From: a virus
IMG/VR virus record: IMGVR_UViG_3300032242_001000
Location: 1-20,386 of that record
Strand: one strand, 5' to 3'
Length of the DNA stretch: 20,386 nucleotides
The notes below the pieces were generated by a model. That model was not told the DNA's origin and made no database searches. It saw nothing but the letters and a program-made list of their open reading frames with translations. Positions within the stretch are counted from its first letter, which is position 1, and the number at the start of each line of letters is the position of its first letter. Both the position numbers and the translations under genes were made by a program. Positions 1 through 14,531 of the stretch are shown one piece after another.

Positions 1-2244
1 ACCGGTCGTGCATGGTCAAGTTTTGATGGTTTATACACAACTAGTAATGTAAGTCCTTATGTTCAAGCCGCTTATGCTCAGGCAAATACCAATTCTGGTA
101 CTACTGCATTAGCACAAGCAGCTTTTAACCAAGCAAACGCTGCCAACATATTAGCTTCATCGGCATATTCTAGTGCTAACGCCAATATCATTTATTTGTT
201 GGCTATTTCTCAAGCGCAAAATGCCAACGTATCAGGAATAAACACATATTCAACTTCAGCGTATGCTTATGCCAATTCTTTAAATACATTTGTTTCATCT
301 GCTTATTCACAGGCAAATAATGCAACTGGTGCTAATGCACTAGCACAAGCAGCGTTTGATAGAGCTAATGCGGCTAACATATTAGCTTCTTCTGCTTATG
401 CAAATTCTAATTCTGTAAGCATTTATTCCATATCTTCTTACAATAGTTCAAATGCGGTCAGCACTTATTCTATATCTGCTTACAATAGTTCAAATGCGGT
501 AAGCACTTATTCAACATCAGCATATAATTATGCTAATAACGTTAATACTTTTGCGCAAGCAGCTTTTGCTCAAGCTAACACACAAGTTGGTTCTGGCAAC
601 TTAGCACAAGCGGCTTTTGATAGAGCAAACTCAGCCAACGTTTTAGCACAATCTTCATATAATTTTGCTAATGCTGTAAGCACCTATTCACAATCAGCAT
701 ATTCAACTGCTAACGGTATTAGTGCATATGCAACGTCAAGTTATTCAACTGCAAATGCGGTTAATTTACTAGCAATATCTGCTTATTCAAATTCTAATTC
801 TGTAAGCACCTATTCACAATCTGCATATACGACAGCTAACGGAGCAAACGGTTTAGCACAATCTGCATACAACAGAGCAAATACATATGCAGGAACTTTT
901 TCAAATAATTCAGGTTACTTAGCAAATACAGTTTTAGTTTCTAATACAACTGGTTTTATTTCAGTTTCTTCTAATATACAATTTTACAACACAAATAGTA
1001 CCTTTATTACCGCTAACGTATATGCAACAAGTGCATTTATATTCCCGGATGGTTCAATACAAACAACTTCTGCTGTTAGTGCTTCATCTAATACCGTTCT
1101 ACTTAAAGGTGCTTTAGATGCGGCTAATGCCAATATTGCTTTATTGTTTGCTTATAGTTTAGCATCAAATGCTAATACTTCTAGTTTAAATACCTATTCA
1201 ACATCAGCATATAATTATTCTAATAACGTTAATAGTTTTACACAGTCAGCATACAATTCAGCAAATAGTAAAGCAAGTTCAACAGGTTATCAAGCAAACT
1301 CGTTCATTTATGTAAATCAAGCGGGCACCATTACAACAACATCACCAATTGTATATGCGGCAAGTAACACCACAACAACTATTACAGGCACAGCAAACGT
1401 AACATCTAATGTCTATATTGCAGGTTCTCTGTTTGTTACAGGTGGTTTTACTGACGGTACACAAGTTTCAATAACTGGCAATACAATTGGTGGTAGCACG
1501 TTATCATATTCAAATATTGTTAGAATAACAAATACAACATCTTCAATATCAAATACTACTGGTGCATTGATTGTTTCTGGTGGTGTTGGTGTAACAGGAA
1601 ACATATACACAGGTAATCATTACATTACAGGTACAGGAAATGGTATTACGTTTGTTGATGGAACAACACAAACTACATCATTCATTGGTCCTTTAAATAC
1701 TGCTAACGCTAATATTTCATACATTTTAACATACGGATTAGCCGCTAATGCTAATATGTCTGCTATTAACACCTATGCAGCTTCTGCTTACAATAAAGCA
1801 AATACGGCAGGTGGCGGTGGTGTTGTTATTACTGATGACACAACAACAAATGCTTCTCGTTATCCTATATTGAGTATTTCAACTTCAGGAACGGCATCTA
1901 CCGGTAATACGTCTAGCACAAAACTATACTTTAACCCTTCTACCGGAACATTAAGTTCAACAATATTTAATTCTCTGTCAGATGAAAACCAAAAAACAAA
2001 TATACAATTAATACCAAATGGTTTACAAATTGTAGAAAATTTAAAAGGTGTTACATTTGATTTCATTGATGGTGAAGTTCCTTCTGCTGGTATTTTAGCA
2101 CAAGATGTTGAGAAATGGTTACCACAATTAATTAATAATGAAAATGGCAACAAAACATTAAACTACAATGGTATCATTGGTGTGTTAGTTGAAGCCGTAA
2201 AAGAATTATCTGAGAGAGTGAAAGCCCTTGAGAAGATTAAATGA
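1..2244 (+). CDS. Tail fibre with S74 intramolecular chaperone domain (5' partial)
   Basis: The frame is open from base 1, so the gene begins upstream; 747 residues are visible. A TTG at 196 could mimic a start, but the same repeat pattern continues upstream of it. Residues about 20-295 are Ala/Ser/Asn/Tyr-rich 14-residue repeats (SAYxxANxVSTYSQ-like, with AQAAFDRAN variants). Fibre motifs FPDGSIQTTS (348-357) and FVDGTTQTTS (551-560) follow. The last 88 residues begin with SDENQK and fit the peptidase S74 family, which helps fibres trimerise and then cleaves itself off. S660 and K665 have the five-residue spacing of the family's Ser-Lys dyad. The gene overlaps the next start by four bases (ATGA). 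The role as a trimeric fibre acting in host adsorption is inferred from the family; the S74 call is firm. Confidence 0.88.
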   Translation, partial: TGRAWSSFDGLYTTSNVSPYVQAAYAQANTNSGTTALAQAAFNQANAANILASSAYSSANANIIYLLAISQAQNANVSGINTYSTSAYAYANSLNTFVSSAYSQANNATGANALAQAAFDRANAANILASSAYANSNSVSIYSISSYNSSNAVSTYSISAYNSSNAVSTYSTSAYNYANNVNTFAQAAFAQANTQVGSGNLAQAAFDRANSANVLAQSSYNFANAVSTYSQSAYSTANGISAYATSSYSTANAVNLLAISAYSNSNSVSTYSQSAYTTANGANGLAQSAYNRANTYAGTFSNNSGYLANTVLVSNTTGFISVSSNIQFYNTNSTFITANVYATSAFIFPDGSIQTTSAVSASSNTVLLKGALDAANANIALLFAYSLASNANTSSLNTYSTSAYNYSNNVNSFTQSAYNSANSKASSTGYQANSFIYVNQAGTITTTSPIVYAASNTTTTITGTANVTSNVYIAGSLFVTGGFTDGTQVSITGNTIGGSTLSYSNIVRITNTTSSISNTTGALIVSGGVGVTGNIYTGNHYITGTGNGITFVDGTTQTTSFIGPLNTANANISYILTYGLAANANMSAINTYAASAYNKANTAGGGGVVITDDTTTNASRYPILSISTSGTASTGNTSSTKLYFNPSTGTLSSTIFNSLSDENQKTNIQLIPNGLQIVENLKGVTFDFIDGEVPSAGILAQDVEKWLPQLINNENGNKTLNYNGIIGVLVEAVKELSERVKALEKIK
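373..885 (+). repeat. 42-bp (14-residue) tandem repeats in the fibre gene
   Basis: Eleven units of 14 codons run in register from 373 (ANILASSAYANSNS), 415, 457, 499 and 541, then resume at 634, 676, 718, 760, 802 and 844. They are interrupted once, at 583-633, by a 17-codon variant (QVGSGNLAQAAFDRANS). The consensus is roughly (V/A)SxYxxSAYxxANx. Neighbouring units are nearly identical in DNA: the segment starting CTTACAATAGTTCAAATGCG at 437 recurs at 479. Two heptads per unit suggest a coiled or fibrous trimer shaft. Degenerate units occur on either side (1-372 and about 1177-1270). Confidence 0.85.
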
Positions 2245-3383
2245 CGACAGGAAATCCTTCTAATTTTTTAAAAGATGATTCAGTCACAGGACAATTAGAT
2301 TTAGATGATGAATATGTAACAGAGTCCTGGTTATTGGAACAGTATGTGGGTAATAATCTTTTCGGACAAGGTTATAATCCAAATGGAGGAATAGGCAATG
2401 GAAATACTACTAGTTTTTCTTCTCCGATTCAAATAGGTAGTTTAACAAATTGGAAGCAAATTGCACAAGGATATGGCCACACCAAAGCAATTAAAACTGA
2501 CGGAACATTATGGTCATGGGGGCAAGATGGATATATTGGTGCTTCTCTTTCTCCCGTTCAAGTAGGAACATCAACTAACTGGAGACAGATTGCGTGTTCA
2601 GGTACTACTTTTGCCTTAACTAACCAAGGAGCTCTGTATTATTTTCAAACTTCTTCTCCTACTCAAATTGGTTCTTTAACCAATTGGAAATCAATTTCGT
2701 CTAGCAGGCTTCACCAAGCAGCTATAAAAACTGACGGTACTTTATGGACATGGGACAACAGCGGAAGCACAGGAAATAATTCTTATGGTGAATTAGGTTT
2801 AGGAAACACGAACGAATATTCTTCTCCAGTTCAAGTAGGTTCTTTAACGAATTGGAAACAAGTTCAAACATTTCATTATCACACACTTGCCATAAAAACA
2901 GATAACACACTATGGGCATGGGGTAGAAATACAGAAGGTCAATTAGGTTTAGGAGATACAACCAATCGTTCTTCTCCTGTTCAAGTTGGTTCTCTAAATG
3001 ATTGGAAACAATTACCTGTAGGTTGTGGTTTTGCAACATACTTTTCTGCTGTTATAAAAACTGATGGTACACTATGGACTTCTGGATATAATAGTTCAGG
3101 TCAATTAGGTTTAGGAAATACGACCGGTCGTTCTACGTTTACACAAGTAGGAAATTCTTCAAATTGGAAACAAGTTTGTTGCGGACAATATGGAATGTCA
3201 GCCACTAAAACTGATGGTACCGCATGGTCATGGGGTGACAATGGTACTGGTGGTGAACTAGGTTTAGGAGACCAAGTTAATCGTTCATCACCTACTCAAA
3301 TTGGTACAATGACAATTTGGAAACAAGCAGCACTTGGTACTAGCGTTATGCATATGACCACTTTCAACGATATAGGACTTTAA
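2241..3383 (+). CDS. RCC1-like seven-bladed beta-propeller protein, N-terminal type A (copy 1)
   Basis: 380 residues. The N-terminal module (1-40) has FLKDDSVTG, DLDDEY and ESWLLEQYVGN, and is shared with the gene at 3387. The rest is seven RCC1-type repeats, each following the pattern [25 protein letters not shown], a variable loop, then [12 protein letters not shown]. I count seven W-(K/R) strands (NWKQIA, NWRQIA, NWKSIS, NWKQVQ, DWKQLP, NWKQVC, IWKQAA). Blades 2 and 3 are shortened, and blade 2 has lost the KTDGTLW strand (TNQGALYYF). It ends FNDIGL. RCC1 repeats fold as a seven-bladed propeller. In a phage late operon directly behind a fibre, a virion surface or receptor-binding role is likely but not shown. 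No signal peptide or membrane segment is seen. Its start codon overlaps the fibre stop. Confidence 0.85.
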   Translation: MTTGNPSNFLKDDSVTGQLDLDDEYVTESWLLEQYVGNNLFGQGYNPNGGIGNGNTTSFSSPIQIGSLTNWKQIAQGYGHTKAIKTDGTLWSWGQDGYIGASLSPVQVGTSTNWRQIACSGTTFALTNQGALYYFQTSSPTQIGSLTNWKSISSSRLHQAAIKTDGTLWTWDNSGSTGNNSYGELGLGNTNEYSSPVQVGSLTNWKQVQTFHYHTLAIKTDNTLWAWGRNTEGQLGLGDTTNRSSPVQVGSLNDWKQLPVGCGFATYFSAVIKTDGTLWTSGYNSSGQLGLGNTTGRSTFTQVGNSSNWKQVCCGQYGMSATKTDGTAWSWGDNGTGGELGLGDQVNRSSPTQIGTMTIWKQAALGTSVMHMTTFNDIGL

Positions 3384-3386
3384 TAT

Positions 3387-4577
3387 ATGCCAACATATTC
3401 ACCTTCTAATTTTCTCAAAGATGATCCAATAACTGGCACTACAGATTTATTTGATGAGTATATGTCAGATTCATGGTTAGTGGAACAGTTTGTCGGTAAT
3501 AGTTTATTAACTTGCGGGTATTCAAGAGGTGGTACTTTGGGTATTGGAGATTCTGCAGGTAATGTTCATTATTCATCTCCTGTTCAAGTTGGAAGTTTAA
3601 ATAATTGGAAACAAGTAGCTTGTGGTTATGCAACTATGTTAGGAATTAAAACAGATGGATCATTATGGGGTTGGGGATTTAATGTCAGCGGAGAATTGGG
3701 TAATGCTTCGGGTGCTTCGTATTCTTCTCCCGTTCAAATAGGAGCATTAACTAATTGGAAACAGATTTCTTTAGACAACAGCAGTTATGCAATTAAAACA
3801 GACGGAACATTATGGTCTGCCGGTGTTAATGGTAATGGTCAACTAGGTATCGGAAGCACTACGGCACAAAATTCTTGGGTGCAAATAGGTTCATTAACTG
3901 GTTGGAAACAAGTTGCGGCAGCAAAATACGCTATGACCGCTATTAGAAATGACGGAACACTATGGGCGTGTGGTTATAATACTTATGGAAATTTGGGGCA
4001 AAATGATAGAACATCACGGTCTAGCCCGGTTCAAATTGGTGCATTAACCAATTGGAAACAAGTATCGGGAGGAACTCCATTTCAACCATTTTGGGTAGCT
4101 ACTAAAACTGACGGAACATTATGGGGTTGTGGGTACAATCAAGCAGGAACTTTAGGTATTGCAAATAATCAGGACGTTTCTTCTCCTGTTCAAGTTGGTT
4201 CATTAACTAACTGGAAACAAGTTTCGGCCGGAGGTCAGCATTGTCTTGCAATTAAAACAGACGGAACATTATGGTCATGGGGTACCAACACCTATGGTCA
4301 ATTAGGCAATGGAAATTCTACAGGATTTTCTAGTCCGATCCAAATAGGAAGTTTAACTAACTGGAAACAAGTATCAGCAGGAAGAACATCATCATCAGCA
4401 ATTAAAGCAGATGGAACATTATGGACGTGGGGGTATGGGCAGTATGGCCAATTAGGTAATGGAACATCAGGATTAGTTTCTTCTCCAATACAAGTTGGAA
4501 GTTTAACTAATTGGAGATATATAGCGCTTAATAGGACTTCTTGGGGTGCGGTAACCTTCAATGACATTGGTTTTTAA
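3387..4577 (+). CDS. RCC1-like seven-bladed beta-propeller protein, N-terminal type A (copy 2)
   Basis: 396 residues, a paralogue of the gene at 2241. The N-terminus SPSNFLKDDPITG, FDEYMSDSWLVEQFVGN aligns with that of copy 1 without gaps, and the C-terminus FNDIGF matches FNDIGL. Seven propeller repeats are visible, with W strands NWKQVA, NWKQIS, GWKQVA, NWKQVS (three times) and NWRYIA. All carry versions of the [12 protein letters not shown] strand, so this copy is more regular than copy 1. Three bases separate it from the upstream stop, and its likely Shine-Dalgarno (AGGA) lies inside the upstream gene's last codons, so translation is probably coupled. A late promoter for the next gene follows immediately. 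Adhesin or decoration function is inferred; the propeller fold is well supported. Confidence 0.86.
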   Translation: MPTYSPSNFLKDDPITGTTDLFDEYMSDSWLVEQFVGNSLLTCGYSRGGTLGIGDSAGNVHYSSPVQVGSLNNWKQVACGYATMLGIKTDGSLWGWGFNVSGELGNASGASYSSPVQIGALTNWKQISLDNSSYAIKTDGTLWSAGVNGNGQLGIGSTTAQNSWVQIGSLTGWKQVAAAKYAMTAIRNDGTLWACGYNTYGNLGQNDRTSRSSPVQIGALTNWKQVSGGTPFQPFWVATKTDGTLWGCGYNQAGTLGIANNQDVSSPVQVGSLTNWKQVSAGGQHCLAIKTDGTLWSWGTNTYGQLGNGNSTGFSSPIQIGSLTNWKQVSAGRTSSSAIKADGTLWTWGYGQYGQLGNGTSGLVSSPIQVGSLTNWRYIALNRTSWGAVTFNDIGF

Positions 4578-4587
4578 TATAATATAA

Positions 4588-4595
4588 TATAAATA
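4588..4595 (+). promoter_or_regulatory. T4-type late promoter (TATAAATA)
   Basis: An exact match to the T4 late promoter octamer TATAAATA lies in the 40-base gap between the second RCC1 gene and the DUF4376-like gene, 22 bases upstream of the start codon. It should drive that gene and the RCC1 genes after it. T4 late promoters are read by host RNA polymerase with the gp55 sigma factor and the sliding clamp; neither gene is in this window. Confidence 0.75.
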
Positions 4596-4617
4596 CTTTA
4601 TAAAAAGAGGATATAAA

Positions 4618-5331
4618 ATGATTAAGTATGTTTTTGTTCAAAATCGTAAAACGATATTATTAGGTCCATTTTTCTGGTCCAAATATAGAACATTCCAATC
4701 GGAGTGTGATGAGTTATTTGAAAACGGAGATTTATCTACTGAATTTAAAATTCCTTCTGAAGAACAAGGATACATCAACATAGGTGAAGGATTTGAAATA
4801 TTTCCTTTAACTGAAAGCACAGGTACAGTTCATCTTGATATGTTTGAAGAACCTGTAGGACCTTATTATAGTTTTGTTGGTAAAGAAGCCAAAGAAAGTT
4901 ATTCGGCTAAAGAGTTACCAATAGAATCAGTTAGAATCAATCTTAAAAAAGTTGTATCTGCTGAAAGATATAATAGAGAAAATTTAAGAACAACAATATA
5001 TGTGGGTAATTCCAGTATTTCTGTTGGTACTGATAGAAATGCTAGAATATATTACTCATCATTACTAACTGGTATTGGTGATTCTCCTATTAATTATAAG
5101 AGTAGTAATGGGTTTATTTCATTAACAGGTGAAGATTTAAAAACTATTGTTGATGGTATTTACTCTTATGTGCAAGAACAATTCAATTGGGAAAAATCTA
5201 TGTCGGAATTAATTGATTCTACAGATTCAGTTGAAGGTCTCAAATCAGTATTAACAACAATACGACCAATAACACCACCAACTCCTTTCACGATACCAAA
5301 TATTCCGGTTGAACCACAAGAAGGTATTTAA
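4618..5331 (+). CDS. DUF4376-like tail-associated protein
   Basis: 237 residues, with its own late promoter and a good ribosome site (AAGAGG, 4605-4610). It has no RCC1 repeats although it sits inside the RCC1 array. Residues about 125-215 resemble the phage DUF4376 domain: an arginine/isoleucine strand, a strand ending FISLTGEDLKTIVDGI, then YVQEQFNWEKSMSELIDS and a short helix (VEGLKSVL). DUF4376 proteins usually lie next to tail fibre genes and are thought of as fibre-associated or assembly factors, but their biochemical role is not established. The C-terminus (about 215-237) is proline-rich (PITPPTPFTIPNIPVEP), probably an extended tail. The N-terminal 110 residues I do not recognise. The stop codon abuts the start of the next gene with no gap, so the two are co-translated. 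Confidence 0.65.
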   Translation: MIKYVFVQNRKTILLGPFFWSKYRTFQSECDELFENGDLSTEFKIPSEEQGYINIGEGFEIFPLTESTGTVHLDMFEEPVGPYYSFVGKEAKESYSAKELPIESVRINLKKVVSAERYNRENLRTTIYVGNSSISVGTDRNARIYYSSLLTGIGDSPINYKSSNGFISLTGEDLKTIVDGIYSYVQEQFNWEKSMSELIDSTDSVEGLKSVLTTIRPITPPTPFTIPNIPVEPQEGI

Positions 5332-6558
5332 ATGCCTGTTAACGGACCAAAAACTGGATTTTCTGTAACCGATCCAAACACAGGAACTTCAACTGATATA
5401 GGTAATACTTTAATTAGTAAAGATTACCTACTCAGCATCTATCCTAATATTGCTAGTCAAACAGGTAATAGAACAAGTCCAGGTTTTTGGACGTGGGGGT
5501 ACGGCCAACAAGGTCAATTAGGAAGCGGTAGTGGTATAGGTACTACTTGGTCATCACCAGTTCAAATAGGAGCATTAACTAATTGGAAACAGGTTAGTTG
5601 TGGCTACAATTTCGGAGGTTCAATAAAAACTGACGGCACTTTATGGATGTGTGGTTACGGTTTAAATGGTCAATTGGGTTTTGGAGGTACTACTACGATA
5701 GCTCCTATCCAACAACTCGGCGCATTGACAGATTGGAGTAAACTTGCCTGTGGTTATTATGCTACCTATGCAATAAAAACCAATGGTACACTGTGGGCCT
5801 GGGGACTTAATAGTGCGGGAGAATTAGGGTTAAACGACACATCAAATCGTAATTCTCCTGTTCAAATAGGAGCGTTAAACAATTGGAAACAGGTTGCTTC
5901 GCATAGTAGAGCTATGTTTGCCATCAAGAATGACGGAACTCTATGGAGTTGTGGTAATAATAATAGTGGTTCATTAGGCAATGGTAATACTACGAATTAT
6001 TCTAGTCCTATTCAAATAGGTAGTTTAACAAATTGGAAACAGGTTGTTGGAGGTACTTTCAATGCTGTTGCTGTTAAAACTGATGGAACATTATGGTCAT
6101 GGGGTTCTAATAGTAACGGTGAATTAGGATTAGGAAATACTACAAATTATTCTTCTCCTGTTCAAGTTGGTTCATTAACTTCTTGGAAATTTGTTTCTGC
6201 AGGCCATACCACTACGGGTCCACAAACAGCAGCTATTAAAACAGATGGAACACTATGGGCATGGGGTAGTAATAATTACGGTCAATTAGGTTTAGGTGAT
6301 ACAACTAATCGTTCCAGTCCTGTTCAAATTGGTTCGTTAACCAATTGGAAATATGTTTCGTGTCGTGGACCTGGTATGTTAGCAATTAAAACTGATGGAA
6401 CACTATGGGCATGGGGAAGAGGTGGTACAACTGGCCAATTAGGATTAGGAAATAATACAAATTATTCTTCTCCTGTTCAAGTTGGTTCATTAACTTCTTG
6501 GAAACAAGTAGAAACACATTATCAATTAACTTATGCAATCCAAGACGGATACATATAA
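5332..6558 (+). CDS. RCC1-like seven-bladed beta-propeller protein, N-terminal type B (copy 1)
   Basis: 408 residues. The N-terminal module is type [34 protein letters not shown], shared almost residue for residue with the gene at 7774. Seven RCC1-type repeats follow; W strands are NWKQVS, DWSKLA, NWKQVA, NWKQVV, SWKFVS, NWKYVS and SWKQVE. It ends TYAIQDGYI, and the other type B copy ends SIAIQDGYI. Blades 5 and 7 share a 68-base DNA segment with one mismatch, a sign of recent intragenic duplication or conversion. The start codon directly follows the upstream stop, with AAGAAGG just before it. The propeller fold is confident. A virion-surface or receptor-binding role is inferred from position and from family expansion. 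Confidence 0.86.
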
Positions 6559-6906
6559 ACTATGGCAAAATTTCCTTCAGGTTATCAATTTCCCATACTA
6601 GATTCTTCTGGTGCTCCTACTAGTACCATAGTGGATGTAGCCGATATGTTTGCTCGTAAAGAATTATTTTTAAATTCTGGATTGTGGGCATGGGGAGAAA
6701 ATACATATGGTCAATTAGGTTTAGGAAATACTACATCATATTCTTCTCCTGTTCAAGTGGGAAGTTTAACGAATTGGAAACAAATATCCATGGGATACTA
6801 TTCTAATTTGGGCATAAAAACAGATGGCACATTATGGTCATGGGGATGGAATTTTCAAGGAGAATTAGGGTTAAACGACACATCAAATCGTAATTCTCCT
6901 GTTCAA
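5818..6906 (+). repeat. Exact 48-bp segment shared between adjacent RCC1 genes
   Basis: Bases 5818-5865 (type B copy 1) and 6859-6906 (type C copy 1) are identical over 48 bases, encoding the [14 protein letters not shown] stretch. The surrounding sequence differs, so this looks like a short exchange between two paralogous genes rather than conservation of the whole region. Only the two ends of the given interval are the repeat. Confidence 0.8.
6122..6504 (+). repeat. Near-identical 68-bp repeats in two blades of the type B copy 1 gene
   Basis: Positions 6122-6189 and 6437-6504 (315 bases apart, about two blades) are the same except for one base, including synonymous positions. Both encode the stretch from LGLGN to LTSWK of blades 5 and 7. 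Confidence 0.85.
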
Positions 6907-7755
6907 GTGGGAAGTTTAACGAATTGGAAACAAATTAGCAATGGATCGTATTCTATATTAGCAATTAAAACTGACGGAACACTATGGGCATGGGGACTTA
7001 ATGATAAAGGTCAATTAGGTTTAGGAAATACTACACCATATTCTTCTCCTGTTCAAGTGGGAAGTTTAACGAATTGGAAAACCGTCTCATGCGGTTATAC
7101 AACTGCGGTTGCAATTAAAACTGACGGAACATTATGGGCATGGGGCCAAAATGCGTATGGCGGATTAGGTCTAGGAAATACTACATCATATTCTTCTCCG
7201 ATTCAGGTTGGGTCTTTAACTGGTTGGAAATCTGCTATATCAATTAATAATGCATTTGTTGCAATCAAGACAGATGGTACACTATGGTCATGTGGGTATA
7301 ATGCTAGCGGACAATTAGGTTTAGGAAATACTACACCATATTCTTCTCCTGTTCAAGTGGGAAGTTTAACGAATTGGAAACAGATTTCTCCAAGTGCCGG
7401 ATATTCTTCCCGATTCTATCATGCAATAAAGACTGATGGAACACTATGGGGATGGGGTTATAATGCTAGCGGACAATTAGGTTTAGGAGACCTAAACAGT
7501 CGTTCTTCTCCCGTTCAAGTAGGATCATTAACCAACTGGAAACAGATAAGTTCCTCATATGCCGGGAATGTGGCCGCTGTCAAAACTGACGGAACATTAT
7601 GGGCATGGGGTGATAATAATAGTGGTGAAAACGGACAAAATGACCGTGGAGTTATTCGTTCTTCTCCTGTTCAAGTAGGAAGTTTATCAAATTGGAAATT
7701 CGTTTCCTCTAGCTCCGAATCTTGTTTGGCAATCCAAGCTCCTGATTTACCTTAA
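6562..7755 (+). CDS. RCC1-like seven-bladed beta-propeller protein, N-terminal type C (copy 1)
   Basis: 397 residues. The N-terminal module is type C: GYQFPILDSSGAPTSTIVD, ADMFARKELFLNS, shared with the gene at 8986. Seven repeats are visible: W strands NWKQIS, NWKQIS, NWKTVS, GWKSAI, NWKQIS, NWKQIS and NWKFVS. This is the most regular propeller in the window; most blades carry a perfect [12 protein letters not shown] or close variant. Blades 1, 3 and 5 share 69 bases that are identical (blades 3 and 5) or differ at one base (blade 1), at exact 300-base spacing. Three bases separate it from the upstream stop. It ends LAIQAPDLP, unlike the AIQDGYI of type B. Function is inferred as for the other members. 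Confidence 0.86.
   Translation: MAKFPSGYQFPILDSSGAPTSTIVDVADMFARKELFLNSGLWAWGENTYGQLGLGNTTSYSSPVQVGSLTNWKQISMGYYSNLGIKTDGTLWSWGWNFQGELGLNDTSNRNSPVQVGSLTNWKQISNGSYSILAIKTDGTLWAWGLNDKGQLGLGNTTPYSSPVQVGSLTNWKTVSCGYTTAVAIKTDGTLWAWGQNAYGGLGLGNTTSYSSPIQVGSLTGWKSAISINNAFVAIKTDGTLWSCGYNASGQLGLGNTTPYSSPVQVGSLTNWKQISPSAGYSSRFYHAIKTDGTLWGWGYNASGQLGLGDLNSRSSPVQVGSLTNWKQISSSYAGNVAAVKTDGTLWAWGDNNSGENGQNDRGVIRSSPVQVGSLSNWKFVSSSSESCLAIQAPDLP
6712..7380 (+). repeat. 300-bp-spaced 69-bp repeats in blades 1, 3 and 5 of the type C copy 1 gene
   Basis: Positions 7012-7080 and 7312-7380 are identical over 69 bases, and 6712-6780 differs from them at one base (codon TCA against CCA). The exact 300-base spacing equals two blades, so the gene appears to have grown, or been homogenised, in two-blade steps. 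Part of the same segment (GTTCAAGTGGGAAGTTTAAC) also occurs at 6901 in blade 2. Confidence 0.9.
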
Positions 7756-7773
7756 TTTTCTATGAGTGAATAA

Positions 7774-8982
7774 ATGCCTGTTACTGGACCAAAAACTGGA
7801 TTTACTGTAATAGACCCTAGTTCAGGATTACCTGTAGACTTGGGTAATAGATACATCAGCAAAGATTATCTTTTAACTGTTTATCCTAATATTGCAGGCC
7901 AATTAGGTGTTAGAAAAAGTTCTGGATTATGGGGCGCTGGTAGAAATTTTTATAACGAATTAAGCACTCCAACTAATGTTGCTTATTCCTCTCCAATTCA
8001 AATAGGAAGTCTAACCAATTGGAAACAAATTAGTGCATCAGGTCATATACTTGGTATTAAAACTGACGGAACACTATGGGCATGGGGTAGTAATGCTAGT
8101 GGTCAGCTAGGTTTAGGTGATATAACAAATCGTTCAACGCCAGTTCAGGTAGGCTCACTAACTAATTGGAAACAGGTTTCGTGTCTTGATAGCCATGTGC
8201 TAGCAATTAAAACTGATGGAACACTATGGACATGGGGACAAAACAATTACGGTCAACTAGGTATAGGAAGTACAACCTATTTTTCTTCTCCCGTCCAAGT
8301 TGGTAGTTTGACAACATGGAAACAAGTAAGTGTTGGTGTCGGATTTAGTTCTTTTGCAATTAAAACTGATGGCACACTATGGGCTTGGGGATTTAATAAT
8401 ATTGGTCAACTAGGTTTAGGAGATATAACTAATAGACTTTCACCCGTTCAAATTAGCGGCTATCCATGGAAGCAAATTGCTACAGGTTCAGGACATACTG
8501 TCGGTATTTATGGAGCCGGAGCTTTATATGCATGGGGACAAAATAGCAGTCAACAATTAGGCCTTGGTTTTAATAGCACAAATTATTCTCTTCCTGTTCA
8601 AGTAGGAAGTTTAACTAATTGGAAATCACTTTCGGTTGGCGGGAGTTCTAGTTTAGCGATTAAGACTGATGGTACATTATGGGCTTGGGGTGATAATACT
8701 TATGGGCAATTAGGTAAAAACGATGTAATTAGTGGAAATAGTCCAGTGCAAATAGGTAATTTGACTAATTGGAAATCTGTTATTATGGGGGGTTACTATA
8801 ATGGTTTAGCAATTAAAACCGATGGTACATTGTGGTCTTGGGGAGATAATAATTATGGCCAATTAAGTTTAGGAAATACTACAAGATATTCTTCACCGGT
8901 TCAGATTGGTTCTCTAACAAGTTGGAAATCAATTTCTTGTGGGTACAGAACTTCTATAGCAATCCAAGACGGGTATATATAA
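7774..8982 (+). CDS. RCC1-like seven-bladed beta-propeller protein, N-terminal type B (copy 2)
   Basis: 402 residues. The N-terminus GPKTGFTVIDPSSG, DLGNRYISKDYLLTVYPNIA matches the gene at 5332, and so does the C-terminus AIQDGYI. Seven repeats: W strands NWKQIS, NWKQVS, TWKQVS, PWKQIA, NWKSLS, NWKSVI and SWKSIS. Blade 4 is divergent: PVQISGYPWK replaces the usual [11 protein letters not shown], and IYGAGALYAWG replaces [11 protein letters not shown]. An 18-base gap precedes it, the largest among the B and C genes, and holds the tiny in-frame string ATGAGTGAATAA directly before the start. This copy and the following type C gene together repeat the preceding B-C pair. Propeller fold confident; role inferred. 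Confidence 0.86.
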   Translation: MPVTGPKTGFTVIDPSSGLPVDLGNRYISKDYLLTVYPNIAGQLGVRKSSGLWGAGRNFYNELSTPTNVAYSSPIQIGSLTNWKQISASGHILGIKTDGTLWAWGSNASGQLGLGDITNRSTPVQVGSLTNWKQVSCLDSHVLAIKTDGTLWTWGQNNYGQLGIGSTTYFSSPVQVGSLTTWKQVSVGVGFSSFAIKTDGTLWAWGFNNIGQLGLGDITNRLSPVQISGYPWKQIATGSGHTVGIYGAGALYAWGQNSSQQLGLGFNSTNYSLPVQVGSLTNWKSLSVGGSSSLAIKTDGTLWAWGDNTYGQLGKNDVISGNSPVQIGNLTNWKSVIMGGYYNGLAIKTDGTLWSWGDNNYGQLSLGNTTRYSSPVQIGSLTSWKSISCGYRTSIAIQDGYI

Positions 8983-8985
8983 TTC

Positions 8986-10233
8986 ATGGCCATAACATCA
9001 GGTTACAAATTTCCCATTTTAGATTCTTCTGGTAATCCTACTAGTACCATAGTAGATATGGCAGATATGTTTATTCGTAAAGAATTATTTTTAACTAGTA
9101 GTTTATATGCTTCTGGAAATAATTCTTATGGTCAATTAGGTATATCAAGTACCACAAATGTTAGTTTTCCTGTTCAAGTAGGTTCATTAACCAATTGGAA
9201 ACAAGTGTCTATAAATAAAACCGGTTATGATGGTACCAAATTTAGATACGGATCGTTAGCAATTAAAACTGATGGCACATTGTGGTATTGGGGTAATGGA
9301 TATTATGCACAAGACGGTCTATTACAAGGTCAAAGTCTAACCAATACTCCACCTTCAACAGGTATATTATCACCAGTTCAAATAGGAACTGCATCTAATT
9401 GGAAACAGGTTGAGATTAATTATTTAAATGCTGCTGCAATAGATACCAAAGGACAAATATATTTTTGGGGATATAATAGTTCTGGTGAGTTTGCTCTACT
9501 GAGTGGTTTTTACACAAATAGTGGAGTCGGTTATTACTCTTTGGGTCCAACCGCTTCAACTCATCCTTTATTGAAAACATTCAGTTTAGGTGGTGGTTGG
9601 TTTCACGGAATAACTATTGAAGGATATTTGTTTACATCTGGCTCTAATAATAATGGCCAATTAGGTTTAGGAGATACTACCAACAGAACGGGAGCCACTC
9701 AAGTTGGTGCATTAAATAATTGGAAACAAATAAGTTCTGGTTATATCGGAAATGTACTTGCAATTAAAACTGATGGAACACTATGGGCATGGGGATATAA
9801 CACTTACGGTCAATTAGGTTTAAATGATATCGTTTCTCGCTCTTCTCCCGTTCAAGTAGGAAGTTTATCAAATTGGAAACAAGTTTCTGCTGGAGACTAC
9901 AGCGGTTTTGCAATAAAAAATGATGGCACTCTGTGGGCATGGGGCAATAATGGTAGTGGCCAATTAGGTATAGGTGATACAACCAATCGTTCTAGTCCCG
10001 TTCAAGTTGGTTCTTTGACAAATTGGAAGCAAGTAAGTGGTGGTGATTTTAATGTTCAAGCAATTAAAACTGACGGAACACTATGGGCATGGGGTTATAA
10101 TTTAGGCGGTCAATTAGGTTTAGGTGATACAATCAATCGTTCCAGTCCTGTTCAAGTAGGTTCATTAACTAATTGGAAACAAACATCAATTTGCGAAGCT
10201 AGTTTTATTGGAATTTCATCAAGCGATTTATAG
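8986..10233 (+). CDS. RCC1-like seven-bladed beta-propeller protein, N-terminal type C (copy 2)
   Basis: 415 residues, the longest of the six. The N-terminus GYKFPILDSSGNPTSTIVD, ADMFIRKELFLTS matches the gene at 6562. Six canonical W strands are present (NWKQVS, NWKQVE, NWKQIS, NWKQVS, NWKQVS, NWKQTS). The third blade is degenerate: around residues 175-215 the W-K strand is replaced by LLKTFSLGGGW, and the KTDGTLW strand by TIEGYLFTSG. Blades 1 and 2 carry longer inserts than usual. It ends FIGISSSDL. It is the last gene of the propeller array; its stop is followed within five bases by a late promoter for the accessory operon. The long loops make this the most divergent copy, as expected if loops define binding specificity, which is inference. 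Confidence 0.85.
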   Translation: MAITSGYKFPILDSSGNPTSTIVDMADMFIRKELFLTSSLYASGNNSYGQLGISSTTNVSFPVQVGSLTNWKQVSINKTGYDGTKFRYGSLAIKTDGTLWYWGNGYYAQDGLLQGQSLTNTPPSTGILSPVQIGTASNWKQVEINYLNAAAIDTKGQIYFWGYNSSGEFALLSGFYTNSGVGYYSLGPTASTHPLLKTFSLGGGWFHGITIEGYLFTSGSNNNGQLGLGDTTNRTGATQVGALNNWKQISSGYIGNVLAIKTDGTLWAWGYNTYGQLGLNDIVSRSSPVQVGSLSNWKQVSAGDYSGFAIKNDGTLWAWGNNGSGQLGIGDTTNRSSPVQVGSLTNWKQVSGGDFNVQAIKTDGTLWAWGYNLGGQLGLGDTINRSSPVQVGSLTNWKQTSICEASFIGISSSDL

Positions 10234-10237
10234 ATAG

Positions 10238-10245
10238 CATAAATA
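10238..10245 (+). promoter_or_regulatory. Probable late promoter (CATAAATA)
   Basis: CATAAATA lies in the 50-base gap between the RCC1 array and the sulfotransferase gene. It matches the T4 late octamer at seven of eight positions and fits the looser NATAAATA form reported for marine T4-like phages. It would start the accessory operon. Confidence 0.6.
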
Positions 10246-10271
10246 ATAGTATAACATCATTTTATTTTATT

Positions 10272-10276
10272 AGGAG
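10272..10276 (+). promoter_or_regulatory. Shine-Dalgarno AGGAG supporting a TTG start
   Basis: AGGAG ends seven bases before the TTG at 10284. No ATG in the frame is as well placed before the conserved SGLPRSGTT motif, so this site fixes the unusual start of the sulfotransferase gene. Confidence 0.7.
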
Positions 10277-10283
10277 TTTTGAA

Positions 10284-11060
10284 TTGAACAAAAAATACCA
10301 TCTTATCTCTGGTTTACCACGTTCTGGTACCACGTTACTTTCAACAATACTGAAACAAAATCCAAGGTTTGAAGCGTCCATCTCAGGACCACTTGCTCGG
10401 TTTGTTCGTGCTATTATCACCGAATCTTCAACACAAGGAGGTTATCGTTTTGAATGTCCTCCGGATAAACGTAAAAAGTTAATTTCTGGTTTATTTGACA
10501 ATTATTATGATGACGAAACAAAAGAAGTAGCGTTCAATACCAATCGTGGCTGGGGTTTATTATTACCAACAATTAAAGATTTATATCCTGAATCTAAAGT
10601 ATTAATGTGTGTTCGTGATATTGGTTGGATACTTGATTCATTTGAAACACTACAAAGAAAAAACCCATATACTTTTACCACAATGTTTGCGCCTGACGAA
10701 AACATCAATGTATATACCAGATGCGAGACACTATTGAATCCTGGTAAAACTCTTGGATTTGCGTATAACGCACTCAAGCAAGCAATCACAGGTGAACATA
10801 AACAATCTATCATGATAATTGATTACGACACGCTAGCAAAAGATCCTGAGATGATGATGAAAGCAATCTATAGTTTTATTGATGAGCCTTATTACCAACA
10901 TGACTTTGATAATGTAGAGGCATCATATGACGAGTTTGATGAAGATGTTCAATTACCCGGTTTACATACAACAAGAAAAAAAGTGGAATATATTCAAAGG
11001 GAATCTATTCTACCGCCTGATATCTGGCAAAGAGTTCAAAATATGGAGGTTTGGAAATGA
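10284..11060 (+). CDS. PAPS-dependent sulfotransferase
   Basis: 258 residues, TTG start. Residues 9-19 read SGLPRSGTTLL, the 5'-phosphosulfate-binding loop of sulfotransferases. R111 and S119 in CVRDIGWILDSFE have the eight-residue R-to-S spacing of the 3'-phosphate-binding motif. Both PAPS contacts are therefore present, and the length fits a full small sulfotransferase domain. The enzyme would move sulfate from PAPS to a hydroxyl, usually of a sugar or small molecule; the acceptor cannot be told from sequence. No signal or membrane segment, so it should act in the host cytoplasm. It is first in an operon with a methyltransferase, a glycosyltransferase-like gene and an APS-kinase-like gene that could supply PAPS. 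Its stop overlaps the next start (ATGA). Confidence 0.85.
   Translation: MNKKYHLISGLPRSGTTLLSTILKQNPRFEASISGPLARFVRAIITESSTQGGYRFECPPDKRKKLISGLFDNYYDDETKEVAFNTNRGWGLLLPTIKDLYPESKVLMCVRDIGWILDSFETLQRKNPYTFTTMFAPDENINVYTRCETLLNPGKTLGFAYNALKQAITGEHKQSIMIIDYDTLAKDPEMMMKAIYSFIDEPYYQHDFDNVEASYDEFDEDVQLPGLHTTRKKVEYIQRESILPPDIWQRVQNMEVWK
11045..11049 (+). promoter_or_regulatory. Shine-Dalgarno GGAGG that decides the methyltransferase start
   Basis: GGAGG lies seven bases before the ATG at 11057 but only one base before the in-frame TTG at 11051. The ATG is therefore the likely start, giving a protein that begins MKVNLGSG. Confidence 0.75.
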
Positions 11061-11638
11061 AAGTGAATTTAGGAAGCGGTTACAGAAGAATAGAAGGATT
11101 TGTGAATGTTGATGATGACCCACTTTGTGAGCCAGAATATCTCGTAAATCTTGAAAAAGATAAGTTGCCATTTGAAGATAATTCGGTGGAAGAAATGATT
11201 GCTCATCATATCTTGGAACACATTGGTGAAGGATTTATTCCTTTGATGCAAGAGATTTATCGTGTGTGTAAGCATGGTGCTATTATTGATATTCGTGTAC
11301 CACATCCTACACATGAATTATTTCTAAATGACCCAACACACAAGCGACCTATCATGGTTGAAGGTATGAGATTGTTTAGTAAAAAATATATGGACGAACA
11401 TTTAAAAACAATTCGTTCAAGTTCAGGCATGGCATATAAGTTTAATGTAGACTTTGAAATTGTTTATTACAATTATATCTACGACACATTTTACCATTCA
11501 ATGATTGAGAGTTTTGTTAAACGGCAGTCAGAAGGTAAAACTTCAAAAGAAGAAGAATGGGCATTTGAAAGATTATTCCGTGAAGCGAATAATGTAGCAA
11601 TGGAAACTGAAATTAAATTAGTGGTGATAAAAGAATGA
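11057..11638 (+). CDS. SAM-dependent methyltransferase (class I, small)
   Basis: 193 residues from the ATG at 11057; an in-frame TTG at 11051 is too close to the ribosome site. Motif I is VNLGSG (3-8), the glycine-rich SAM-binding loop. The acidic strand FVNVDDDP (15-22) follows, then LPFEDNSVEEMIAHHILEHI (37-56), typical of Methyltransf_11-type enzymes that often act on small molecules or sugars. The C-terminal half is helical, with an EEEWAFERLF stretch, and has no other recognisable domain. The substrate is unknown. It overlaps the sulfotransferase stop and the next start by four bases on each side, so the three genes are translationally coupled and probably act on the same product. Glycan O-methylation is one plausible role. 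Confidence 0.8.
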   Translation: MKVNLGSGYRRIEGFVNVDDDPLCEPEYLVNLEKDKLPFEDNSVEEMIAHHILEHIGEGFIPLMQEIYRVCKHGAIIDIRVPHPTHELFLNDPTHKRPIMVEGMRLFSKKYMDEHLKTIRSSSGMAYKFNVDFEIVYYNYIYDTFYHSMIESFVKRQSEGKTSKEEEWAFERLFREANNVAMETEIKLVVIKE

Positions 11639-13062
11639 TAGACAAATACCAAACAGATAATCCTTTAGCAATGGTGATTGAATTTTTAGAAAAACAAAAT
11701 AAAGATTCTTTAGCAAGTGATGTGATTGATGTGTTTGCTGATGTAACACAACAAGCCGCAGAAAATAATCAACACGCTGTTGCACTTGAACAGTTTAATT
11801 TAATAGCTAAACTTTATTTGGATGTTAGAAATATTCCTAAAGCAGAAAAGTTTGCATTGCGTGTTCTAGGTATGTCAAACACCAAAGAACAAACCTATAA
11901 TGCTCGTGCCAATTTAGGTAAACTTTATAACAATGTGAATCAACCTGAAAAGGCTTTGTTTCATTCTAAGTTAAATAATATTGCTTTTCCTAATGACCCC
12001 GATACATTGATGGAAATGGTATTTTCATATTATCTATTGGCACAAAAAGAAGAAGCAGAAAAAATCTTAAGATTTCTAAAAGAAAATGAAGATAAGTTAA
12101 GTGAAAGACACCAAGATATTGTGAATTTCAATTTAGGTACTTATGACTTAGAAAAAGGAAAGTTTAATGAAGGCCTAAGAGGATTTATGTTAAAAGGAAA
12201 GAAACTAAAACTTTGGTTCTCTCATCGTGAATTACCATATAAGTTTTGGGATGGTGGTGCTTTTCCTGGTAAAACTTTAATTCTCTTTGCTGAAGGTGGT
12301 GGTATCGGTGATGAGATGTTAAGTATTCGTTTTATGGATGACCTAAAGGCAATTGGATTTAAACCATTATTTTATACATCAAGAAAAGATTTATGTGATT
12401 TATTTAATCAAAACGGTTACGAAACAATTATGAATTTAGATGGTGTTCCTAAAGATGCTATGTGGACTTACTTCATGCAGGTACCAATTTATCTGAATTC
12501 AAAACCAGAAAAAGTTCTTCGTGAAAAATATTTGTTACCTAACCAAGAAGCAAGAGACAAATGGAGTTTCATTAAAGAATCCAAGAAAATAAAAATTGGT
12601 ATTCGTTGGCAAGGTAACTCTAAAAATGAAAGAGACTTACATCGTAAAGTACCACTTGATGATATCATGCGTTATGTAAATCAATTTAAAACGGATGACA
12701 TTGAATTGTATTCATTACAAATAGGTGACGGCATTGAAGAAATACAAAAGTATCCTGAATTGATTGATGTTTCTGATAAAATACAATCTTATAACGACAC
12801 ACTAGCATTACTAGAAAATTTAGATTATGTAATCACCTCATGTACTTCTGTGTTACACGCAGCTGCTGCTGTTGGAACAAAAACGTTGGCATTAATTCCT
12901 ATTTCTGCTTACTTTACTTGGGTTAGTCCACCAACAACAGGTCGTCCTGAAAATACAAGCATTTGGTATGGTGATAATTTGAGAGTTTTTAAACAATCAG
13001 TTCCTCATTCTTGGAACGAACCACTTGTTGAATTAATTGATTACTTGAAAGCTGAACTATGA
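11635..13062 (+). CDS. TPR-domain, GT-B glycosyltransferase-like protein
   Basis: 475 residues. Residues about 1-190 are helical with TPR-like spacing (AKFALRVLGMS, ARANLGKLYNNVNQPEKALF, FNLGTYDLEKGKFNEGLRGF). Residues about 200-475 resemble the GT9/heptosyltransferase-like GT-B fold seen in many bacterial TPR glycosyltransferases: FAEGGGIGDE (218-227) as the first Rossmann loop, IGIRWQGN (321-328) starting the second, then YNDTLALLENLDYVITSCTS (386-405) and LHAAAAVG (407-414) with H408, and a WYGDNLRVFKQ end. In relatives the second domain binds the nucleotide sugar. Donor and acceptor are unknown. In the sulfotransferase and methyltransferase operon it could build or bind the glycan they decorate. 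Both gene ends overlap their neighbours by four bases. Confidence 0.75.
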   Translation: MIDKYQTDNPLAMVIEFLEKQNKDSLASDVIDVFADVTQQAAENNQHAVALEQFNLIAKLYLDVRNIPKAEKFALRVLGMSNTKEQTYNARANLGKLYNNVNQPEKALFHSKLNNIAFPNDPDTLMEMVFSYYLLAQKEEAEKILRFLKENEDKLSERHQDIVNFNLGTYDLEKGKFNEGLRGFMLKGKKLKLWFSHRELPYKFWDGGAFPGKTLILFAEGGGIGDEMLSIRFMDDLKAIGFKPLFYTSRKDLCDLFNQNGYETIMNLDGVPKDAMWTYFMQVPIYLNSKPEKVLREKYLLPNQEARDKWSFIKESKKIKIGIRWQGNSKNERDLHRKVPLDDIMRYVNQFKTDDIELYSLQIGDGIEEIQKYPELIDVSDKIQSYNDTLALLENLDYVITSCTSVLHAAAAVGTKTLALIPISAYFTWVSPPTTGRPENTSIWYGDNLRVFKQSVPHSWNEPLVELIDYLKAEL

Positions 13063-13877
13063 AAAAAATATTGATTATGGGATTACCAGGTTCTGGTAAA
13101 ACAACGTTAGCAAAAGCATTAAAAGATTATCTTGAAGAATGTTCTGTTACCTATTTGGAAATGATGCCTCTTTTTAAAAAAGTTTCTTGGTTTAATGCTG
13201 ATGAAGTCCGAAAAAAATATAATGATTGGGATTTTTCAGATATGGGTCGTATTCGCCAATCATTAAGGATGGCACAATTTGCATTAGAATCTGGTGGTGA
13301 TTATGTCATTTGTGATTTTGTGGCACCTTTAGTTGAAATGAGAAACAACTTCAAAGCAGATTGGACTATTTGGATGGATACAATAGATAAAGGTCGTTTT
13401 GAAGATACTAACAAAGCATTTATTCCTCCAGACCGTTACGACTTTAGAATTACGGAACAGAACGCAGAGAAGTGGGCTGAGTTTATTGGTGAACGTATCA
13501 TTAAAGATATTAGGCGTCCTGAATTTGATTGGAGAAAAGAGACTGTTCAAATGTTAGGTAGATGGCAACCATGGCATGAAGGTCATCGTGCATTGTTTGA
13601 GAGAGCGATTAAAAAAACAGGCCAAGTAATTATTCAAATTCGTGACTGTCAAGGCTGGCAAGGTTCTAATCCTTTTGCAATTGAACAAGTTAAATCTTTT
13701 ATTAAAAGAGATTTGGATCCTTTGTATCAAGGTCAATATGAAATACAAATTGTTCCCAATATTGTTAACATCACATATGGTCGTGACGTAGGATACAAGA
13801 TTGAACAAGAAATATTTGATGAAGCAATACATTCTATTTCTGCAACTAAAATCCGTAAGGAGATGGGAATTGAGTGA
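13059..13877 (+). CDS. Bifunctional APS-kinase-like P-loop kinase / HxGH nucleotidyltransferase
   Basis: 272 residues in two domains. The N-terminal P-loop kinase has Walker A GLPGSGKTT (8-16), NADEVR (46-51), FSDMGRIRQSLRM and CDFVAPLVEMR, which match the order of motifs in adenylylsulfate (APS) kinase; APS kinase makes PAPS from APS and ATP. From about residue 163 a nucleotidyltransferase domain follows, with GRWQPWHEGH (167-176; HxGH 173-176) and the ISATKIR signature (260-266). This resembles the cytidylyltransferase-like superfamily, which includes NMN adenylyltransferases and, more distantly, ATP sulfurylase. If the second domain makes APS the protein would be a small PAPS synthase, but its motif is closer to NadM-like enzymes, so this is open. 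The downstream sulfotransferase substrate need makes the kinase role credible. Confidence 0.75.
   Translation: MKKILIMGLPGSGKTTLAKALKDYLEECSVTYLEMMPLFKKVSWFNADEVRKKYNDWDFSDMGRIRQSLRMAQFALESGGDYVICDFVAPLVEMRNNFKADWTIWMDTIDKGRFEDTNKAFIPPDRYDFRITEQNAEKWAEFIGERIIKDIRRPEFDWRKETVQMLGRWQPWHEGHRALFERAIKKTGQVIIQIRDCQGWQGSNPFAIEQVKSFIKRDLDPLYQGQYEIQIVPNIVNITYGRDVGYKIEQEIFDEAIHSISATKIRKEMGIE
13857..13862 (+). promoter_or_regulatory. Shine-Dalgarno AAGGAG supporting a TTG start
   Basis: AAGGAG inside the end of the kinase gene ends seven bases before the TTG at 13870. It places the start of the DUF2061 gene there rather than at codons further upstream, which would overlap the kinase heavily. Confidence 0.75.
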
Positions 13878-14073
13878 TACAAATGTAAGAAGTTTAGCAA
13901 AGGCTATATCATGGAGAGTTACTGGTACTATTGATACTTTTATCATTTCTTGGCTAATAACAGGCCAAATTTTATTGGCATCTGGTATTGCATTTACTGA
14001 AATAATGACAAAAATAATTTTATTCTGGTTACACGAAAGGGTATGGAATAAAATTCAATGGGGTAAATCCTAA
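13870..14073 (+). CDS. DUF2061-family small membrane protein
   Basis: 67 residues from a TTG start with an ideal ribosome site. The sequence RSLAKAISWRVTGT (7-20), a TGxxxLAxGI-like centre and LHERVWNKIQWG (54-65) are the hallmarks of DUF2061. Two hydrophobic segments (about 17-31 and 34-54) make it a small inner-membrane protein. The family's function is not known. In bacteria DUF2061 genes are often found near sulfate assimilation genes (cysteine and APS/PAPS steps), and some family members are fused to APS kinase, an association I recall rather than have tested. That would fit its place directly after an APS-kinase-like gene. It overlaps the kinase by eight bases and ends 38 bases before gp16. 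Confidence 0.75.
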   Translation: MSDTNVRSLAKAISWRVTGTIDTFIISWLITGQILLASGIAFTEIMTKIILFWLHERVWNKIQWGKS

Positions 14074-14090
14074 CATATATACCTTTACGG

Positions 14091-14098
14091 CATAAATT
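14091..14098 (+). promoter_or_regulatory. Weak late-promoter-like motif (CATAAATT)
   Basis: CATAAATT sits 13 bases before the gp16 start in a 38-base gap. It misses the last A of NATAAATA and is close to the start, so it is only a candidate. The ribosome site AGGTAA (14103-14108) follows. Confidence 0.25.
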
Positions 14099-14111
14099 GT
14101 ATAGGTAACCA

Positions 14112-14531
14112 ATGAACGATTTTGATAAAAACATGGAAAAAATCTTTGATGTTCCTGCAAAGGACACCAAAGATTTACCTGTTGTTACTAAAACTACACC
14201 ACTCTATAACGCACCTAATATTGAAGAAGATTTAGGTGACGCATATCAACAATCAAGAGAAAATCTTCAAGGCATTATTGACCAAGGTCAAGAAGCAATG
14301 CATGAAATTTTAGAGATAGCAAAAGCAGGCCAACATCCAAGAGCATTTGAAGTTTACAGCGGCCTTCTAAAAAATATGGTTGACGCTAATAAAGAACTTT
14401 TAAACATCCAAAAACAGATGCGTGATATGGACAAGAAAAAAGAAGTCAACAATACCAATATAGATAAAGCCATCTTTGTTGGTAGTACCAATGAACTGGC
14501 TAAATTTCTAAAAGACAATGGCAACAAATAA
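14112..14531 (+). CDS. gp16: Small terminase subunit (gp16-like)
   Basis: 139 residues. It is mostly helical and charged: YQQSRENLQGIIDQGQEAMH then EILEIAKAGQHPRAFEVYSG and LLKNMVDANKELLNIQKQMR correspond to the central helices of T4 gp16 (which has [20 protein letters not shown]). The C-terminal IFVGSTNEL (121-129) matches VFMGSPTEL of T4. Small terminase forms rings, recognises or regulates packaging DNA and stimulates the gp17 ATPase. Position immediately before gp17, with a 14-base overlap, supports the call. It is slightly shorter than T4 gp16. The start has AGGT six bases upstream. Confidence 0.9.
   Translation: MNDFDKNMEKIFDVPAKDTKDLPVVTKTTPLYNAPNIEEDLGDAYQQSRENLQGIIDQGQEAMHEILEIAKAGQHPRAFEVYSGLLKNMVDANKELLNIQKQMRDMDKKKEVNNTNIDKAIFVGSTNELAKFLKDNGNK

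Follow-up and report, generated by a model that had tools for sequence, protein, structure and literature searches.

This analysis concerns a run of propeller genes in a 20,386-base virus record, IMGVR_UViG_3300032242_001000, which comes from a T4-like phage; the whole of that stretch is referred to here as the window. Between a fibre-like gene, F, and a sulfotransferase gene, S, six adjacent genes each encode a short N-terminal module followed by a propeller of the RCC1 type, and the modules fall into three classes, A, B, and C. Together with X, a DUF4376-type gene lying between the A and B genes, these make up nine genes on a single strand, with intergenic gaps of -4 to +50 nucleotides (nt). 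Judging from sequence, we think it probable that the six genes are a duplicated version of a conserved adhesin cassette, in which the modules would dock and the propellers would bind the host. The parts are as follows.

1-2244, plus strand: F, 3' part of a fibre-like gene, truncated by the window start; C-terminal Peptidase_S74 (PF13884, E = 3.9e-10) and PHROG tail families
2241-3383, plus strand: A1, class A module (~2241-2348) and RCC1 propeller
3387-4577, plus strand: A2, class A module (~3387-3494) and RCC1 propeller
4618-5331, plus strand: X, DUF4376-type, 237 amino acids (aa), putative tail-fibre chaperone
5332-6558, plus strand: B1, class B module (~5332-5484) and RCC1 propeller
6562-7755, plus strand: C1, class C module (~6562-6675) and RCC1 propeller
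7774-8982, plus strand: B2, class B module (~7774-7926) and RCC1 propeller; structure predicted
8986-10233, plus strand: C2, class C module (~8986-9096) and RCC1 propeller; six repeats by a model built from the window
10284-11060, plus strand: S, sulfotransferase (PF13469, E = 7.6e-14; gene order), the last cassette gene in most relatives

The propeller genes and gene X

The first-pass annotation, made from the letters alone, had proposed six adjacent RCC1-propeller genes here, and they are present as described: the open reading frames (ORFs) start at 2241, 3387, 4618 (X), 5332, 6562, 7774, and 8986, all on the plus strand, with the last stop at 10233, and Pfam RCC1 gives 38 match sites across the six propeller frames. 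Each frame holds an RCC1-like propeller as one domain, and all six pass the WD40_RLD cut-off (E from 6.7e-54 to 5.3e-81). Its further statement that every gene has seven repeats holds for five of them, with counts of 7, 7, 7, 7, 7, and 6 under the window-built repeat model; since that model counts six in C2, we read this gene as having one blade that the model missed. A tandem-repeat or assembly artefact was considered and rejected, as the propellers are just 49-59% identical and the frames are intact.

B2, the one propeller modelled, is predicted to take the propeller fold (mean predicted local distance difference test score, pLDDT, 89.2). Its closest solved neighbour is RCC1-like domain 2 of HERC2 (7q40_A, Z 52.6, 348 residues, 1.5 Å), and its other best solved neighbours are other RCC1 proteins. 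BLIP-II (3qhy_B, Z 30.5) and the PLL lectins (Z ~17) are also among its structural neighbours, which indicates that related propellers can bind proteins and sugars. It is important to remember that although HERC2, UVR8, RCC1, and BLIP-II share this type of propeller with the window proteins, they have other partners, and a eukaryotic function cannot be transferred from the fold.

The three proposed N-terminal pairs are equally clear. Modules are 64% identical between A1 and A2, 65% between B1 and B2, and 81% between C1 and C2, against 21-50% between classes; for the propellers, all 15 pairwise identities fall at 49-59%, whatever the class.

The DUF4376-like gene predicted between A and B is likewise borne out, more firmly by its family than by the window protein itself, which matches DUF4376 at E = 4.4e-5 and 24.3 bits, slightly below the 25-bit cut-off. 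Among 37 aligned members of the X family, 35 match the domain at E ≤ 0.01 (best 5.5e-13), and PHROG tail fiber protein 10508 also matches 35 of the 37. The structure of X is predicted at a mean pLDDT of 92.0; a fold search of the PDB returned nothing at E ≤ 0.001, and prefoldin matches (Z up to 6.9) lay in a middling range and were not used. A scan of viral contigs with the X protein gave 10 pattern matches, none of which was confirmed.

Alteromonas phages V22 and A5 both carry a DUF4376 chaperone gene, which adjoins the receptor-binding gene (gp26/gp27 in V22, gp8/gp9 in A5) much as X adjoins its neighbours here (PMC7289586, PMC10579305). Host-cell recognition by V22 gp26 requires gp27, the protein with the DUF4376 domain, which is absent from the final complex (PMC7289586). 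Unlike the window proteins, the fibre of V22 and A5 is not an RCC1 propeller. By analogy, X is probably a tail-fibre chaperone.

Conservation and divergence of the cassette

Profile scans of viral contigs, using patterns taken from the module core only, found 67 loci with the B module, 70 with A, and 16 with C, many of them from the same contigs. Hidden Markov models (HMMs) of the modules recovered 160 distinct proteins (49 A, 57 B, 54 C). The first-pass annotation had named the occurrence of these modules on non-virion enzymes as evidence against its reading; RCC1 repeats follow the module in all of these proteins (49/49 A, 57/57 B, 54/54 C), although the HMMs favour RCC1 carriers because they extend a few residues into the first blade. 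Exactly seven repeats are present in 41/48 A, 47/52 B, and 34/40 C proteins with an intact 3' end. The B module, the one scanned against bacterial and archaeal genomes, gave 18 pattern matches there and none confirmed. Against named phages, the 50-aa B module of locus L018 had no tblastn match at E ≤ 1, and the A module of Synechococcus phage S-SRM01 recovered S-SRM01 alone, in two records.

The search of phage genomes for copy number and order, which had been suggested as a check, gave a consistent picture. Most loci have the order F-A-X-B, followed by C and S at varying distance; exceptions include L191-L194 (A present, X/B undetected), L187 and L189 (other RCC1 genes between), and L213/L217 (C undetected). 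Counting the 23 distinct arrays that have both F and S in view, the ratio A:B:C is 1:1:1 in 21, 1:1:2 with two C genes in one, and 2:2:2 in the window only, so that three is the usual number of propellers in this cassette. With start codons set by a simple rule, 31 of 38 distinct loci have an overlap between F and A (4 nt in the window), and the distance from X to B is within 60 nt in 48/49 loci, as is that from A to X in 38/43. The genes therefore stand in an adhesin-type context, with fibre and fibre-chaperone-type neighbours in the order F-A-X-B and an S74 domain on the window's F.

The closest known cassette belongs to S-SRM01 (NC_070963, Kyanoviridae), a cultured phage from a Singapore reservoir. 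Its order is like that of the window: an annotated long tail fibre gene (gp334) comes first, then gp335 of class A, the X-like gp336, and gp337 of class B, and after six further genes gp344 of class C and an annotated sulfotransferase (gp345), with class labels from models that had some S-SRM01 proteins as seeds (gp336 is a seed of the X model). Each class is represented once, and unlike in the window six genes part B from C. Marine virus AG-345-E08 has a layout similar to that of S-SRM01, with differing N-termini and labels that come from reading the sequence. The window would thus be a doubled form of a conserved three-class set, A having become AA and BC having become BCBC.

Module and propeller appear to evolve separately. 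All three genes, A, B, and C, are complete at 78 loci (several per contig), which were reduced to 24 by dropping those with B propellers at least 90% identical. Across these, module identity is 0.487 for the same class in different genomes and 0.272 to 0.279 for different classes. Propeller identity between genomes is nearly the same within a class (0.538) as between classes (0.534), and it rises to 0.625 for different classes within one genome, a difference reached in 0 of 2000 permutations in which genome labels were shuffled within class. The nearest neighbour of a module is of its own class in 73/76 cases; among the 76 propellers it is of the same class in another genome for 30 and of another class elsewhere for 19. 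The within-genome likeness of propellers is probably due to exchange or gene conversion, and amino-acid usage shared across a genome could add to it.

Closely related loci tell a similar story. In pairs with X at least 78% identical, and with RCC1 proteins more than 90% identical excluded, the diverged propellers are 59-75% identical, against 79-93% for X, 93-100% for the gene labelled T, and 86-100% for S where present. F is not always conserved, since its last 150 residues are 54-93% identical in these pairs. Of 31 overlapping comparisons, 28 show higher conservation in the module than in the propeller. Between L119 and L156, for example, identities are 92% for F, 92% for X, 98% for T, and 91% for S, versus 66% for A, 64% for B, and 60% for C; between L155 and L156, B, C, T, and S are at 100% and A is at 62%, which looks like a replacement of A by itself. 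Faster divergence of the propellers than of neighbouring genes is thus seen in close pairs, and the order of strands suggests that it falls on an exposed face.

Within the repeat, the variation is concentrated in particular loops. Over 209 non-independent pairs (66-95% identical), mismatches are frequent in loops 8-22 and 40-44 (rates of 0.498 and 0.611) and much rarer in loop 30-33 (0.103) and turn 49-2 (0.023); repeat positions 8, 10, 11, 41, and 42 reach 0.84-0.89. Entropy across 994 distinct repeats is consistent with these rates. If the blade is an up-and-down four-stranded one, loops 8-22 and 40-44 would share one face and 30-33 and 49-2 the opposite face.

Some variants of the propeller genes deserve mention. 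Proteins with 14, 20, or 21 repeats, which would correspond to roughly two or three propellers per chain, are found at L010 (11784-15251), L032 (2391), L060 (733), L092 (5029), and L111 (5862). Locus L036 has eight near-tandem seven-repeat RCC1 genes (2115-12205) with unrelated, proline-rich N-termini. The N-terminal pattern 'W...G.W', sought in proteins lacking RCC1, had seven loose matches, of which one, at L044, was convincing. The L044 gene (10441-11703) has no detected RCC1 repeats, no Pfam match, and an N-terminus like that of another RCC1 group; a module swap is possible.

Surroundings of the cassette in the window

The T4-like assignment is based on the terminase of the window, which shares up to 52% identity with gp17 proteins of Kyanoviridae, and on the final gene, which encodes the portal protein (phrog_213); the ORFs between them are putatively named sheath and tube from their position alone. 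From the cassette to the terminase (10284-13877) there are the sulfotransferase assigned by Pfam, a methyltransferase-like ORF, a long ORF with weak Pfam matches to TPR and glycosyltransferase-9 (E ~0.09), and a kinase/nucleotidyltransferase-like ORF, where the methyltransferase and kinase labels come from reading the sequence. S-SRM01 also has similar enzymes close to its cassette. Perhaps such enzymes modify the virion or the host surface. At the end of the portal ORF (20240-20371), a 66-nt direct repeat, 79% identical, corresponds to a duplicated stretch of 22 residues.

The sequence TATAAATA, the T4 late-promoter motif, lies at 4588-4595, 22 nt upstream of the X start. It is not enriched, with 2 occurrences in the window versus 3.2 expected by chance, and for this reason we make no late-promoter claim for it. 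Scans of 1800-14600 for promoters and terminators showed no excess over shuffled sequence.

Host binding and its alternatives

RCC1 proteins have been noted in other phages, and their contexts help in weighing what the cassette may do. Annotated tail fibre genes adjoin the RCC1 genes of Cronobacter phage PBES 02 and Clostridioides phage LIBA6276, and Bacillus phage SP-15 has one near a baseplate gene; annotation around those of Brevibacillus phage Jenst and Marinobacter phage PS6 is uninformative. In SeaP3_12 of the T7-like Pseudomonas phage Ppr_SeaP3, a weak Phage_T7_tail N-terminal match is joined to an RCC1 C-terminus, and structural matches of B2 in BFVD include fibre proteins of PollyC and Littlefix. 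In all three the propeller terminates a fibre-type protein, as one long chain with a T7-type N-terminus, as opposed to the short class modules of the window.

Escherichia phage W70 (Vequintavirinae) has three adjacent RCC1-like proteins of single-propeller size, W70_237-239, which were detected in virions by electrospray ionisation tandem mass spectrometry (ESI-MS/MS) under phrog_4219 (PMC11370258), a family that the window proteins match as well. GAP32 gp1 is a virion protein, with multiple homologues in 121Q and PBEC04 (PMC5259590). Published virion location covers only distant RCC1 proteins, those of W70 and GAP32. The first-pass annotation had called six propellers in one phage unusual, which was overstated: L036 has its eight, 121Q has a cluster, and phAPEC6 has eleven RCC1 proteins (PMC7247149). 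Its modular surface or receptor-binding reading is partly supported, by conserved classes with variable propellers, fibre- and chaperone-type neighbours, and variation on one presumed face.

Most likely, the cassette proteins are host-surface binders on the virion. F would be a fibre with an S74 folding domain, and A, B, and C, each with a single propeller, would be produced alongside it and would probably mature with the help of X. The short class-specific module may dock each protein to a fixed partner, which could be the fibre, the baseplate, or another of the propeller proteins, and the freely varying face of the seven-bladed propeller (repeat positions 8-22 and 40-44) may bind ligands on the host surface. 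Propellers would be exchanged or homogenised among modules within a genome, and docking and binding would therefore evolve independently. Doubling of the set would give the window two versions of each class.

Several observations weigh against this account. The module, terminal in the window as first described, is preceded in some relatives by ~170 to 970 residues of other sequence, and the class module of B2 is predicted at low confidence (pLDDT blocks of ~51 to 77). Just 27 of 76 propellers are nearest to another class of their own genome, versus the 30 nearest to their own class elsewhere. The faster divergence is lost against X in distant pairs, where X has diverged as much as the propellers. 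The Phage_T7_tail match of SeaP3_12 scores 23.0 bits, under the cut-off of 25.2; W70 matches to RCC1-like models are weak; and the 121Q and W70 clusters have no annotated tail genes nearby, which for W70_237-239 is unlike the window cassette. Predicted isoelectric point (pI) exceeds 8 in 92 of 137 A, B, and C proteins, which is compatible with DNA binding. Finally, repeat proteins in general show loop variation.

This last point leads to the best of the alternatives, namely that the proteins are virion spacers or decorations with no specific ligand, whose loops vary for want of constraint. Loop variation alone does not separate binding from relaxed constraint, and the virion presence of distant relatives fits equally; the strong one-sidedness of the variation, with loop 30-33 and turn 49-2 held nearly fixed, and the retention of three classes in nearly every array make the idea improbable to us.

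A second alternative, suggested in print for the RCC1 proteins of phAPEC6 and W70 (PMC7247149, PMC11370258), is that the proteins condense or order phage DNA within the capsid. The median predicted pI over the 137 proteins is 8.65, PHROGs places RCC1 families in DNA, RNA and nucleotide metabolism, and distant relatives are present in virions. However, DNA is a constant ligand and one set of loops is hypervariable, the cassette begins with a fibre gene and contains a gene of tail-fibre-chaperone type, and the pI values in the window spread widely, from 5.5 to 9.2. We consider that DNA condensation fits less well than an adhesin role and give it a slim chance. An intracellular role, such as inhibiting host proteins as the BLIP-II propeller does beta-lactamases, would surprise us most: that structural neighbour shows that the fold can bind a protein tightly, and rapid divergence is compatible with an arms race in the cell, but the genes sit in a fibre cassette and distant tandem relatives were detected in virions (PMC11370258).

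Within the host-binding reading, a more specific proposal can be offered tentatively, as one that we would not expect to hold in full. A, B, and C, none able to stand in for another, might be the three subunits of a single hetero-oligomeric host-binding device, or occupy three positions in it. The device would be mounted with the S74 fibre, combining a conserved docking code with a shared, fast-changing pool of propellers homogenised by recombination; such a device would account for the 1:1:1 ratio and for 2:2:2 in the window. If true, it would be a propeller-based counterpart of variable-loop binder systems.

That RCC1-bearing virion proteins and fibres exist is already known. New here are three modules, each conserved within its class, that occur in a fixed order together with a DUF4376 gene; the way in which module and propeller vary independently; and hypervariability restricted to particular loops. 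Among the titles and abstract openings found by searches of open-access literature, none describes the cassette, and the phrase 'chromosome condensation' is absent from the main text of the S-SRM01 paper (PMC8557907). Two RCC1 text matches in PMC10218006 were dropped as gene names, and at least one further match was dropped as a strain name (RCC1878). RCC1 proteins are also mentioned in PMC12648861, in a passage silent on virion location.

Many phages have RCC1 proteins, and these are filed under chromosome condensation or DNA metabolism; for this family, the features of the cassette suggest host-binding virion proteins instead. S-SRM01 is cultured, and virion location, the need for the chaperone, and host binding are all directly testable in it. 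If the host-binding reading is true, these phages would provide a natural case of a regular repeat scaffold that has evolved into a variable binder.

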